A stretch of DNA of 42,590 nt from Planctomycetia bacterium (GTDB lineage Bacteria; Planctomycetota; Planctomycetia; Gemmatales; Gemmataceae), in contig SYHD01000221.1 of NCBI GenBank assembly GCA_005799265.1, forward strand, positions 1 through 42,590, given 5' to 3'. This document shows, in pieces, positions 13,937 to 22,355 of the stretch. The notes beneath the pieces were generated by a model, which made no database searches, was not told the DNA's origin, and worked only from the letters and a program-made list of their open reading frames with translations. The first letter of the stretch is position 1, and each line of letters opens with the position of its first letter. Made by a program: the position numbers and the translations under genes.

Positions 13937-14515
13937 ATGCAACATGCCGAGATCGTCAACCAGATCATGGAAATGTTCGCCGTCGCCGGTCAAGCCGCCT
14001 ACTATGGCGAGGCGGTGTCGCAGACGGAGCACGCTCTCCAATCGGCGAACCTGGCTGTGCAAGCGAATGCCGCGAATGAACTCATCGTCGCCGCGCTCTT
14101 GCACGACGTTGGCCACATGCTGCGCGGTTCGGATGAAACCACCGCCAAGCGTGGCATCGACGATGTTCATGAGGAACTAGGCGCTGCCTGGCTGGAACGG
14201 CACTTCGGCCCGACAGTGACAGGTCCGGTTCGCTTGCATGTGGCGGCCAAGCGCTACCTCTGCGCCGTCGATAGCGCCTATTTGAGTGGGCTCTCGTCCG
14301 CATCCCAGTTGAGCCTGAGATTGCAGGGCGGACGGTTTTCCCCCGGCGCAGCGCGCGCGTTTGAATCGGAGCCGCACTTCGTCGAGGCCGTGGCGCTCAG
14401 ACGTTGGGATGACGCCGCGAAGGTGGCGGGGCTTACGGTGCCAGGACTCGAACACTATCGGGACATGATGGAATCGGTCCTCAGTGAAGGGAGCATCGAT
14501 GTCACGGGAAGTTGA
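13937..14515 (+). CDS. HD-domain oxygenase, PhnZ/TmpB-like (phosphonate C-P cleavage)
   Basis: A 192-residue HD-domain protein of the phosphonate-operon HDIG family (TIGR03276 as I recall). PhnZ is a mixed-valent di-iron oxygenase that cleaves the C-P bond of alpha-hydroxyphosphonates. Its known residues, as I remember them, have equivalents at nearly constant offset: Y22/E25 (PhnZ Y24/E27), H32 (H34), H56-D57 (H58-D59), H78 (H80), H101 (H104), K105 (K108), R155 (R158), D158 (D161). Both the iron ligands and the Tyr/Glu gate of PhnZ are therefore present, arguing for an oxygenase and not an HD phosphohydrolase. The ATG at 13937 has GAGG 9 nt upstream. The 3' end overlaps the FAD gene by 17 bp. 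No PhnY-type hydroxylase is adjacent. Confidence 0.93.
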   Translation: MQHAEIVNQIMEMFAVAGQAAYYGEAVSQTEHALQSANLAVQANAANELIVAALLHDVGHMLRGSDETTAKRGIDDVHEELGAAWLERHFGPTVTGPVRLHVAAKRYLCAVDSAYLSGLSSASQLSLRLQGGRFSPGAARAFESEPHFVEAVALRRWDDAAKVAGLTVPGLEHYRDMMESVLSEGSIDVTGS

Positions 14516-15629
14516 TGTCGCCGTCGTCGGCGCGGGCGTCCTCGGTCTCGCCCATGCGTATCATCTCGCAAATCGCGGGTTGCGCGTCGTCGTATTCGAG
14601 CGAACGCCGGTCGCGCAGGGAGCGTCGATCCGCAACTTCGGCATGCTCTGGCCCATCGGTCAGCCGCCGGGGAAGCTCTATCGCCTTGCCCGACGTAGCC
14701 TCGAAGTCTGGCGCGGCATCTTGTCCAGTGCCGGCATCGATCATGAACCGGTCGGTTCGCTGCATCTCGCCTATCATGACGACGAGGCCATGGTTTTGAA
14801 CGAATTCGTGAGTCGCTTCGGACGCGACTATTCGGCTGAAATGCTGACGCCTGCACAGATTGTCAATCGATTCCCCGCAGTTCGCCAGGACGGCCTGCGC
14901 GGCGGCATGTTCAGCCCAGTCGAGGTGACGGTCGACGCACGCAAAACTCTGGCCGCGCTGCCGTATTGGTTGCAACGGACCTACGGCGTCGAGTTCGCAT
15001 TCGGTACCACCGTGCTCGGCTACGATTCGCCGCGCGTGGAAACGACGGCAGGCGAATGGACCGCGCCGCGCATGGTTGTCTGTGCGGGCGTTGATTTTCG
15101 CGACCTGGCGCCGCAAGCCTTCATGCAAGCCGGCCTCGTGCCGTGCAAGCTGCAAATGATGCGCTCCCAGGCTTACAGTCGCGCATGCCGTGTTGGCGTC
15201 ATGCTCGCGGCAGGGTTGACGCTGCGCCATTACCGCGCCTTTGCCGACTGCGTCAGCTTGCCCGCGCTGATCCAGCGATTCGACCGAGAGATGCCAGAGT
15301 ATGGCCGTTACGGCATCCATGTGCTTCTGTCGCAGAATTCGTCCGGCGAGCTGTTCATCGGCGATTCGCACGAATATGGCAATGTCATCGAGCCGTTCGA
15401 CAAGGCGGAGATCGACGATCTGATCCTGCGCTACCTGCATACATTCGTCGCGATCCCCGACCTGCGCATCGCCGCCCGTTGGCACGGTATCTACGTCAAG
15501 CATCCGACGGAGCCGTACGTCGTCGCCCATCCGCAACCCGGCATGATGGCGGTCGCGGGCGTCGGCGGCAACGGCATGACGCTTTCCTTTGGCCTCGCTG
15601 AGCAAACCATCGCCGACTTCGTGAGTTAG
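14499..15629 (+). CDS. FAD-dependent oxidoreductase (TIGR03364-like, phosphonate-associated)
   Basis: A 376-residue DAO-type flavoenzyme. The N-terminal dinucleotide-binding fold has GAGVLG (11-16) and the ribose-binding Glu at E34 (VVFERTP). The C-terminal GVGGNGMTLSFGLAE is the usual FAD-contacting end. Sequence and neighbours place it with the FAD oxidoreductases that recur in phosphonate clusters; members of that group have been reported to oxidise aminoethylphosphonate or N-methylated forms, which I recall but cannot verify here. The chosen ATG has GAAGGGAG upstream; the gene overlaps the HD gene by 17 bp, indicating coupled translation. The stop codon TAG lies inside the left arm of the following palindrome, so the exact C-terminus may have been set by repeat insertion. 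Confidence 0.9.
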   Translation: MSREVDVAVVGAGVLGLAHAYHLANRGLRVVVFERTPVAQGASIRNFGMLWPIGQPPGKLYRLARRSLEVWRGILSSAGIDHEPVGSLHLAYHDDEAMVLNEFVSRFGRDYSAEMLTPAQIVNRFPAVRQDGLRGGMFSPVEVTVDARKTLAALPYWLQRTYGVEFAFGTTVLGYDSPRVETTAGEWTAPRMVVCAGVDFRDLAPQAFMQAGLVPCKLQMMRSQAYSRACRVGVMLAAGLTLRHYRAFADCVSLPALIQRFDREMPEYGRYGIHVLLSQNSSGELFIGDSHEYGNVIEPFDKAEIDDLILRYLHTFVAIPDLRIAARWHGIYVKHPTEPYVVAHPQPGMMAVAGVGGNGMTLSFGLAEQTIADFVS

Positions 15630-15685
15630 CCGGAAGCGCAAGCGACGAATGCTGTGAAATTCCGTCGCTTGCGCGTCCGGCTAAC
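15625..15685. repeat. Palindromic repeat, TTAGCC...GCGCAAGC family (intergenic copy)
   Basis: Arms 15625-15650 and 15659-15685 pair almost fully (one mismatch, one bulge) around an 8-base loop. The left arm begins GTTAGCCGGAAGCGCAAGC; its TAG is the stop of the FAD gene. It is nearly identical in layout to the copy inside the DUF1549 gene at 21613-21674. Confidence 0.88.
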
Positions 15686-19850: not shown

Positions 19851-19862
19851 GGTGGTGTGATG

Positions 19863-22355
19863 ATGGGTGATCTCGTTTTCGTTCTTGCATTCACGGCGCC
19901 CGCCCTGGGCGGCCAACCCGCACCCACGGCCGAACAGGTCGAATTCTTCGAGAAGCGTGTGCGCCCCATTCTCGTCACGCACTGCTACGAATGCCACAGC
20001 CAGAACGCCAAGAAGCTCCAGGGCAAACTGCTGCTGGACTCGTGTGCCGGCATCGCCAAGGGCGGACGCTCCGGTCCAGTGCTCGTGCCAGGCAAACCGC
20101 AAGAGAGTCTGCTCATCACGGCCGTCAAGCACATCGATAAGGACCTGCGTATGCCTCCCAAGTCGAAGTTGTCGGCTCAAGAAATCGCCGACCTCGAAGC
20201 GTGGGTCAAGATGGGCGCCCCTGACCCGCGCGTGGCGAACCCGCTGCCGAAGCGCGGAGAGATAGACATCACCCAGGGCAAGAAGTTCTGGTCGTTTCAG
20301 CCGATCAAACGCAGCGAGCCGCCGCCTGTCAAAGACAAGAACTGGCCAATTACAACCATCGATCGATTCATCCTCGCCAAGCTCGAAGCGAAGGGCATGA
20401 TGCCGGTCGGCCCAGCGGACAAGCGCACGCTGATTCGCCGGGCGACGTACGATCTCACTGGCCTGCCGCCGACGCTGGAAGAGATCAACGCGTTTCTAAA
20501 AGACGATTCGGTCGACGCTTTGGCGAAGGTCGTCGATCGGTTGCTGGCGTCGAGCGCTTACGGCGAGCGCTGGGGCCGCCATTGGCTGGACGTGGTGCGC
20601 TACGCCGACACCGCGGGAGACAATTCTGATTTTCCGATTCCGCAGATGTACCTCTATCGGAACTGGGTCATCGACGCCTTCAATCGCGACATGCCTTACG
20701 ATCAATTCGTTCGTGAACAGCTCGCGGGAGATCTATTGAAGGATGAAGGCAGAAGGATGAAGGATGAAAAAAAGGAGCAATTCGATTCATCCTTCATCCT
20801 TCATCCTTCATCCTTTTCTCCCCTCATCGCGACAGGCTACCTCGCCAACTCGCGCCGCCACGGCTCCTATGAGGACGCACGCTATCCGTGGCATCTCACA
20901 ATCGAGGATACGATCGACAACCTTGGCAAGACATTCCTGGGCATCACGATTCATTGCGCGCGTTGCCACGATCACAAGTTCGATCCCTTCACCAATGAGG
21001 ATTACTACGCGCTCTACGGGATCTTCTCCAGCACGCGCTATCCGTGGCCCGGCATCGAACTCGATCGCGTGCAGCGCGATTTGATTCCGCTCGGCTCCTC
21101 CGCCGAATTCAAGAAGGCCGGTGACGAACACTACAAGAAACTCGCGGCGATGGAAGCGGTCGTCAAGAAGCTGGAAGCGGCGAAAGCGTCGGCCGACAAG
21201 ATCAAGAGCGCGAAGGACGAGCGCGATGCCTTCGCCAAGCAGCCGTTACCGTACCCGACCGTGTACGGTGTCATCGACGGCAAGAATGAGCCGAAGAAGC
21301 GCATCGGCCAGGTCGGCAACGCAAAGGTGCAAATCAAGGGCGATCCGGATCGTCTCGGCAAGGAAGTGCCGCGCCGCTTTCCGGCGGTGCTCGGCGGACA
21401 ATCGTTGAACGCCGCCGTCAAGGGGAGCGGCCGATTGGAGCTGGCGGCGTGGATCACCGATTCCGCCAATCCGCTGACCGCGCGCGTCATGGTCAATCGC
21501 ATCTGGCAGTATCACTTCGGCCAGGGGCTTGTGCCGACAGCGAACGACTTCGGCAAGCAAGGCCGACCGCCGACGCACCCGGAACTGCTCGACTGGTTGG
21601 CAAGTGAATTCATTAGCCCCGAGCGCAAGCTCGGGGATCGCGCGGCCCCCATGCTTGCGCATGGGGCTGGTAACTGGAGCATCAAACGGATGCATCGCCT
21701 CATCATGCTCTCGCGCGTCTATCAACTTGCGAGCACCGACGACGAAGCGAACCTGAAAGTTGATTCGGCCAATGATTATCTCTGGCGCTTCGCGCGGCGC
21801 CGGCTCGACGCCGAGTCGATCCGCGATGCGCTGCTCTTCGTCAGCAGCAGTCTCGATCGCACGCCGGGAGGACCGCATCCATTTCCGCCGACGATGAAGT
21901 GGGACTTCTCCCAACACAAACCGTTCAAGGCCGTTTACGAAACGAACCGCCGCAGCGTCTATCTGATGACACAACGCATCGCCCGGCATCCGTTTCTCGC
22001 TCTCTTCGACGGCCCCGACACGAACGCCAGCACAGCAGCCCGGCCGACGACCACGACGCCGTTGCAGGCGCTGTTCCTGATGAACGACCCGTTCGTCCAC
22101 GAGCAAGCGAAGAAGTTGGCCGCACGCCTATTGAGGGAAGACTCCGAGGACGCCGTCCGCATCGAGCGCGCGTTCGTTCTGCTGTTCGCCCGCTCGCCGA
22201 GCGCGGAGGAAACGATGCAAACGAGCGCGTTTTTGGCGCTGGTTGCGGGGCGATTGCGCGGCGCGGGTATGACGGCAGAGCTGGCACGGGTGGGCGCCTG
22301 GGAGAGCTTCGCGCGGGCGCTGTTGATGAGCAATGAGTTTATGTATGTGAATTGA
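19863..22355 (+). CDS. PSCyt1-PSCyt2-PSD1 (DUF1549/DUF1553) protein with two in-frame repeat insertions
   Basis: 830 residues from the third of three tandem start codons (19857, 19860, 19863), which gives the best spacing to GAGGTGG. A signal peptide is followed by a PSCyt1 domain with HCYECHSQ (heme motif C41-C44-H45) and DLRMPPKS. The DUF1549 domain has TIDRFILAKL and YGERWGRHWLDVVRYADT, then a CARCHDHKFDP motif. The C-terminal DUF1553 has LTARVMVNRIWQYHFG and TPLQALFLMNDPF. This planctomycete family is of unknown function, probably periplasmic and heme-containing. Two low-complexity peptides, KDEGRRMKDEKKEQF... (about 293-318) and SPERKLGDRAAPMLAHGAG (about 585-604), sit where relatives are, as I recall, much shorter; both are encoded by palindromic repeats. 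It forms the usual pair with DUF1501. Confidence 0.94.
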   Translation: MGDLVFVLAFTAPALGGQPAPTAEQVEFFEKRVRPILVTHCYECHSQNAKKLQGKLLLDSCAGIAKGGRSGPVLVPGKPQESLLITAVKHIDKDLRMPPKSKLSAQEIADLEAWVKMGAPDPRVANPLPKRGEIDITQGKKFWSFQPIKRSEPPPVKDKNWPITTIDRFILAKLEAKGMMPVGPADKRTLIRRATYDLTGLPPTLEEINAFLKDDSVDALAKVVDRLLASSAYGERWGRHWLDVVRYADTAGDNSDFPIPQMYLYRNWVIDAFNRDMPYDQFVREQLAGDLLKDEGRRMKDEKKEQFDSSFILHPSSFSPLIATGYLANSRRHGSYEDARYPWHLTIEDTIDNLGKTFLGITIHCARCHDHKFDPFTNEDYYALYGIFSSTRYPWPGIELDRVQRDLIPLGSSAEFKKAGDEHYKKLAAMEAVVKKLEAAKASADKIKSAKDERDAFAKQPLPYPTVYGVIDGKNEPKKRIGQVGNAKVQIKGDPDRLGKEVPRRFPAVLGGQSLNAAVKGSGRLELAAWITDSANPLTARVMVNRIWQYHFGQGLVPTANDFGKQGRPPTHPELLDWLASEFISPERKLGDRAAPMLAHGAGNWSIKRMHRLIMLSRVYQLASTDDEANLKVDSANDYLWRFARRRLDAESIRDALLFVSSSLDRTPGGPHPFPPTMKWDFSQHKPFKAVYETNRRSVYLMTQRIARHPFLALFDGPDTNASTAARPTTTTPLQALFLMNDPFVHEQAKKLAARLLREDSEDAVRIERAFVLLFARSPSAEETMQTSAFLALVAGRLRGAGMTAELARVGAWESFARALLMSNEFMYVN
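20739..20815. repeat. Heptamer-repeat hairpin inside the DUF1549 gene
   Basis: Left arm 20739-20768 is built of GGATGAA units, right arm 20786-20815 of TTCATCC units; they pair at 28 of 30 positions around a 17-base spacer. The reading frame runs through it. Architecture matches the intergenic heptamer hairpin at 35364-35504, though the unit sequence differs. Confidence 0.9.
21613..21674. repeat. Palindromic repeat, TTAGCC...GCGCAAGC family, inside the DUF1549 gene
   Basis: Contains two perfect 7-bp-stem hairpins (21617-21636 and 21647-21666), bounded by TTAGCCCC on the left and GGGGCTGGTAA on the right. The left part TTAGCCCCGAGCGCAAGC differs from the intergenic copy at 15626 in three of 18 bases. 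It is read in frame as part of the protein. Confidence 0.88.

Follow-up and report, generated by a model that had tools for sequence, protein, structure and literature searches.

The closest described counterparts of the element reported here are the REPINs that are associated with RAYT genes (PMC3116915, PMC3733652, PMC6006769). As characterized in these reports, a REPIN consists of two inverted REP hairpins around a poorly conserved center, the spacers being less conserved than the arms (PMC3116915); the copies are many and dispersed, RAYT genes are flanked by the same doublets, and the TAG of an element can serve as the stop codon of a neighboring open reading frame (ORF). Di Nocera et al. 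2013 (PMC3733652) described REP families from Rhodopirellula baltica as well as REP dimers within genes of several bacteria, noted that those of the GTAG type are most frequent in Opitutus terrae, a verrucomicrobium, and counted these intragenic REPs as REPs. According to the same report, inserts in genes of one category sit at different sites, with a single same-site exception in recB of two Xanthomonas. An earlier note on the DNA analyzed here had proposed that a mobile hairpin tolerated in coding DNA would be a new class of protein-inserting repeat for its phylum, a proposal that is anticipated by the published REPs of R. baltica and in-gene REP dimers (PMC3733652). REPs that lie in frame within genes are generally regarded as exceptional. 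The in-gene class is already known, but its recurrent capture by a single loop appears new to us, and no report of such a recurrent single-loop hot spot, or of its absence from a repeat-rich genome of a sister genus, was found in the open-access collection searched, as judged by titles and abstracts.

The window, which is the whole stretch of 42,590 nucleotides that was analyzed, contains a gene on the + strand (19857-22355) encoding an 832-aa protein that comprises the domains PSCyt1, PSCyt2 (DUF1549) and PSD1 (DUF1553). A REP doublet (REPIN) of the ACCAGCCCC type lies in frame in the DUF1553 domain at 21612-21671 (+) and encodes the peptide ISPERKLGDRAAPMLAHGAG. It is formed by a left REP hairpin at 21617-21636 on the + strand, CCCCGAG-CGCAAG-CTCGGGG (CCCCGAGCGCAAGCTCGGGG), and an inverted right REP hairpin with the loop CTTGCG at 21647-21666 on the - strand (CCCCATGCTTGCGCATGGGG), both of which are perfect. 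The two loops (CGCAAG and CTTGCG) are complementary to each other, and the two hairpins form one larger hairpin with gap-free arms of 27 nt each that are 78% complementary. The conserved Trp codon (TGG, 21675-21677, +) of the motif WSIK closes the turn in which the insert sits. A second REPIN, of the GTTAGCCGGAC sub-family, is located between genes at 15625-15685 (+), and the upstream ORF 14484-15629 uses its TAG at 15627-15629 as stop codon. The location and sequence given for the in-frame element by the earlier note were confirmed on the window, as were the three differences in 18 bases between its left half and the copy at 15626 and the preservation of the frame and of all downstream motifs, the ORF being uninterrupted across the doublet. 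The claim that the same element occurs between genes and in frame needs a correction: a dispersed palindrome is present in both settings, but the two copies belong to different sub-families.

The note had also described this segment as being only a few residues long in relatives. In an alignment of 109 homologue rows, drawn from two collections so that some organisms appear twice (e.g. L026 and L055) and not all rows are independent, 106 rows have exactly 3 residues at the turn between F[IV] and W, one (L066) has 10, with extra residues of the type GGRQPPVA, and two are truncated there. The short length therefore holds in 106 of the 107 informative rows, and a peptide of equal length in most homologues is ruled out as the explanation of the segment, which has 20 residues in the window protein, a net gain of 17. 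An AlphaFold2 model of the window protein built with 56 sequences (mean pLDDT 88.9) suggests that the insert fills a helix-helix turn, as a low-confidence loop (pLDDT 48, residues 591-600) between helices 575-586 and 609-617. A search for solved structures that resemble the DUF1549/DUF1553 model gave none at E <= 0.001.

We searched for further copies in the genome to which the window belongs (G000; 6.47 Mb, 372 contigs, 87% complete). The doublet pattern GCGCAAGC-N8..38-GCTTGCGC gave 88 matches, compared with 4 for the reversed pattern, and TTAGCC-N2..4-GCGCAAGC gave 173 matches (83 + 90), compared with 1 for its control; these counts exclude a chance palindrome and show the high dispersed copy number that is expected of a REPIN. 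At least three doublet sub-families occur in G000, namely GTTAGCCGGAC, ACCAGCCCC and ACTAGCCCGCA. In 19 GTTAGCCGGAC copies with an inner length of 36, identity is 95% in the arms and 33% in the 8-nt center, which resembles the published REPINs; the unpaired head at the foot of the REP (GTTAG, ACTAG or ACCAG), which is similar but not identical to the canonical GTAG, and the loop CGCAAG differ from them. The doublet pattern was matched in 46 of 95 genomes of the family, with the reversed control equally high in many of the 46, while six congeners have 12-108 doublet matches each compared with 0-3 for the control, and G075, from another genus, has 68 doublets. Rfam gave no match at the gathering score in the window, L168 or L217, and an RNA family was rejected as the identity of the element in these stretches. 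Contigs C11, C113, C132, C164 and C167 are among several G000 contigs that begin or end at the repeat, which probably breaks the G000 assembly.

Two RAYT-like genes were found in G000, one at C120:15245-15697 with ACCAGCCCC doublets on both sides and one at C190:16765-17205 with GTTAGCCGGAC doublets on both sides, so that each is flanked by its own sub-family, as is typical of a REPIN and its cognate RAYT. The RAYT-like protein passes the Pfam Y1_Tnp model (33.5 bits, cut-off 23), and its sequence contains NHVH and Y----Q, as would be expected of a Y1/HUH single-Tyr transposase. We use the label RAYT-like because the protein scores below the NCBIfam REP_Tyr_transpos cut-off (27 bits vs 80). 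Homologues at E <= 1e-10 are present in 58 of the 95 family genomes. In the 30 best RAYT loci (L333-L362, C190 excluded, with less than 300 bases of flank covered at a few), CGCAAG-loop doublets lie within 300 bases of the gene on both sides in 8 cases, on one side in 5 and on neither in 17; the both-side loci are L333 of the own genome and L334, plus L339, L341, L343, L344, L353 and L359. The 17 loci without such a doublet, among them the nearest RAYT of G075 (L335), weigh against a RAYT-linked element. In L168 (G000:C120) and likewise in L329/L334 (G063:C104), orthologous DUF1553 genes are immediately followed, on the downstream side, by the RAYT gene.

We consider it likely that the element is a RAYT-linked REPIN that spreads widely, its in-frame copies being kept, and that one tolerant turn has been refilled by about six kinds of repeat. 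The two inverted REP hairpins would move as a non-autonomous unit, mobilized most likely by RAYT/TnpA-REP tyrosine transposases that the genome itself encodes and that would cut and join single strands. Copies would land widely; those that shift the frame or create a stop would be lost, and those that keep the frame would persist as an extra peptide in proteins that presumably still work. The inter-helical DUF1553 turn of this genus would tolerate such peptides and so permit many independent entries, and the repeats in it would be gained, lost or exchanged between related species.

The copies that lie inside genes were identified in 60 stretches around doublets by scoring both flanks for the coding frame. 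Together with the window these stretches hold 62 doublets, which cover part of the 88-match set and leave out several copies at contig ends; since one base variant per half was permitted, the 62 do not all have to be among the 88 exact matches. The same best frame in both flanks, open through the element, was found for 28 of the 62, while 2106 of 3000 random 60-nt places in the same DNA (70%) pass the coding-frame test. The doublets are thus depleted in genes, not absent. The published REPIN sets, in contrast to the 28 of 62 intragenic copies here, are described as mostly extragenic, a difference that we do not regard as excluding the element from the REPINs, given that PMC3733652 counts intragenic REPs as REPs. 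The 17 credible intragenic copies of the GTTAGCCGGAC type all read xLAGRASDG..SLARPAN(x) or a close variant, and their inner lengths, 36 (16 copies) or 42 (1 copy), are all multiples of 3. A multiple of 3 was found in 10 of the 21 GTTAGCCGGAC-type copies that fail the in-gene test, two of which (L191 and L205), being at contig ends, could not be assessed; the contrast is significant (Fisher p = 0.002, calculated with 17/18 by including the doubtful L189). These copies use a single frame because, at that length, a TAG at one end and a TAA at the other close the remaining two. The nine intragenic copies of the ACCAGCCCC type use two frames, seven reading [T/I]SPxRxxG and two PAPRASVG. L189 passes the in-gene test but is regarded as a false positive (no Pfam match, 159 aa, inner length 35), and the in-gene copy in L207 (2238) has no Pfam match.

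By Pfam, the carriers of intragenic copies include AlaRS, UvrD, AtuA, RlmL, an ArgZ-like protein, an aldo/keto reductase, malate synthase, DAHP synthase, a beta-CASP nuclease, DUF1501 and an FAD oxidase with two inserts. The inserts sit within or beside the Pfam matches, that of UvrD being inside the UvrD_C match. The AlaRS insert (L175:1649-1681) encodes a peptide immediately ahead of the second additional domain (tRNA_SAD match, CGGTH region). In-frame presence in unrelated genes is also a property of Rickettsia palindromic elements (RPEs), whose logic the earlier note had invoked. The comparison is apt in that an in-frame palindrome is tolerated in genes, but the anatomy of an inverted REP doublet, with a RAYT flanked by the same doublets, is that of a REPIN and not of an RPE. 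The sequence and tag differ from those of RPEs, which carry CGTC tags in R. conorii according to PMC3733652, and a RAYT-like gene is linked here, while the account in PMC3733652 links no transposase gene to CGTC repeats.

The turn in the DUF1553 domain was then compared among paralogues. The genome has 91 PF07587 matches, from which 75 distinct PSD1 proteins were used, those left out being mostly low-scoring and of the short class; 31 of the 75 are of the short class, all with a short loop, and 44 are of the long class. At least 4 extra residues at the turn were found in 18 of the 44 long-class paralogues. By type, seven of these 18 inserts are ACCAGCCCC REPs (one a single REP), one is a GTTAGCCGGAC REPIN, five are of the CTCTCC type (SPLPTGGEGPGVRG and kin), two are AGERSEPAG, one is GGLRPP and two have no family label. 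Extra residues at the turn are present in 21 of 37 long-class proteins of G063 (from a set of the 37 best-scoring proteins and one of the short class) and in 12 of 30 loci, the ten best-scoring per genome, of G061, G062 and G065 (3, 4 and 5 of 10, respectively). The in-frame REPs in uvrA of O. terrae, also a member of the PVC superphylum, are described as REP dimers that are read as 20-30 residues in conserved enzymes (PMC3733652), and are alike in this respect; here one turn of one paralogue family has been taken dozens of times by several repeat families. The single insert of the earlier note has become a more striking case, the same loop being hit repeatedly by several families in paralogues and orthologues.

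For the 40 turn inserts of G000 (18) and G063 (22, counting one of only +3 residues), we examined similarity to other DNA and hairpin formation relative to shuffled sequences. At least 3 similar places were found for 30 inserts, these counts including the insert itself and other DUF1553 inserts in DNA that was enriched for such loci, and for 10, among them the GGLRPP insert, the DNA searched contains no second copy. The 16 ACCAGCCCC-type inserts share the design of the intergenic copies, and every one of them folds better than shuffles (z -2.7 to -11.4); the GTTAGCCGGAC insert, the KGERLN type (3 of 3) and GGLRPP also do (z -2.4 to -11.4 with the ACCAGCCCC type included), as does one AGERSEPAG insert of two. 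For the most part the CTCTCC type folds no better than shuffles (z 0 to -2.5); its label for L326 derives from a text rule (GGEG), and as this insert has no second copy the label is doubtful. We conclude that the turn inserts come from about six repeat-like families, not all of which are proven palindromes. Ordinary variation in loop length, with a chance similarity to repeats, would account for the 10 inserts that lack another copy and for the five CTCTCC-labeled inserts of G000 (z 0 to -1.6). It is very improbable as a general explanation in view of the 30 inserts with similar places and the 16 that are built like intergenic copies, and for the REP types it is contradicted by the copy counts (88 vs 4) together with the hairpin z values. 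An assembly artefact could be suspected in a draft genome with frequent contig ends in the repeat, several contigs starting or ending within the element, but it is hardly credible given that the frames are open through the inserts in the separately assembled G000, G063, G061 and G065.

Orthologues differ in both the presence and the family of the insert. On an 81-row tree calculated with the loop cut out (a quick IQ-TREE run in which 52 of 78 inner branches are starred), insert type has to change 30 times and presence 19 times. The 32 sister pairs of G000 and G063 comprise 10 in which both turns are empty, 9 filled/empty pairs, 4 with different named families (L176/L296, L165/L297, L250/L314, L262/L331), 4 with the same family and 5 in which at least one insert has no family label and neither member is empty. 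Two of the filled/empty pairs have an unlabeled or doubtful insert (L303, L326) and three have a ACCAGCCCC REPIN (L315, L299, L310); for example, the empty L230 (AQQ) and L299, with the REPIN peptide MAPTSPRRKPGDEENPTLARGAG, are 87% identical in the domain. The G063 protein nearest to the window protein (L321; 57% domain identity) has an insert with no second copy, and the best G065 match is 69% identical with an empty turn.

These comparisons bear on the idea that a loop cassette spreads chiefly by gene conversion among DUF1553 paralogues after a few insertions, which would explain why all carriers use the same turn and why a [MV]-x-Pro lead-in is common to most ACCAGCCCC-type inserts across separate sub-clades. 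We regard this as unlikely, because about six repeat-like families occupy the turn and the family differs between orthologues, because AlaRS, UvrD and other unrelated genes carry the same elements, and because the six listed G000 paralogues are 43-56% identical to the window protein, which leaves short tracts for conversion. At the junctions, a Pro codon (CCN) lies just 5' of most ACCAGCCCC-type inserts (L299, L310, L302, L307, L165, L173, L176 and others), and the empty orthologues compared at the turn lack it. Flanking changes accompany the inserts in many sister genes, so that these do not represent clean insertion into an unchanged turn. The inserts stop at the TGG codon or a few codons upstream of it in most sister genes. 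A fixed target sequence at the turn was rejected when junction codons were compared by eye, only the conserved TGG adjoining the site.

The concentration of inserts at this site would most plausibly reflect tolerance of the turn, rather than targeting or benefit. Tolerance alone does not account for the case of G075, which, with its 68 doublets, has no turn inserts, extra residues being found in 0 of the 30 proteins examined, of which 19 are of the long class (18/44 in G000 vs 0/19, Fisher p = 0.0005). It is conceivable, and in our judgment improbable, that the turn is actively targeted or favored, through useful peptides (loop diversification) or a DNA preference of the transposase. In its favor, 18 of the 24 repeat-like inserts counted by eye in the 44 G000 paralogues are at this one turn, five genomes of the genus have extra residues at it while the 19 long-class proteins of the one other repeat-rich genome examined have none, several repeat families are involved, and the conserved TGG codon adjoins the site; against it, no common target beyond TGG was established, the insert is floppy in the model and it shows no sign of a conserved function. 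A broader proposal, in which the turn is a landing site for several repeat families, through a target preference or through selection that favors loop variety, can be entertained tentatively. If it were true, mobile hairpins would be a steady source of new protein loops that are captured in frame, retained as peptide and exchanged between species. In related genomes several repeat families have repeatedly filled a turn whose length in most other homologues is 3 residues. With its many filled and many empty orthologues, a candidate transposase and a control in a sister genus, the case is a naturally replicated experiment in the conversion of mobile DNA into protein sequence.

The host gene in the window has a second in-frame palindromic insert at 20742-20822 (+), an inverted repeat of GGATGAA units (DEGRRMKDEKKEQFDSSFILHPSSFSP) that sits in another turn, with inserts there in three sister genes. 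This second turn lies after REQLAGDLL and has four inserts in own-genome paralogues when the GGATGAA palindrome of the window gene is included. Its modeled confidence is also low (pLDDT 51 and 59 for residues 301-320). The insert is read as a peptide that includes SSFILHPSSFSP, and the paralogue L193 has a related insert in the same turn.
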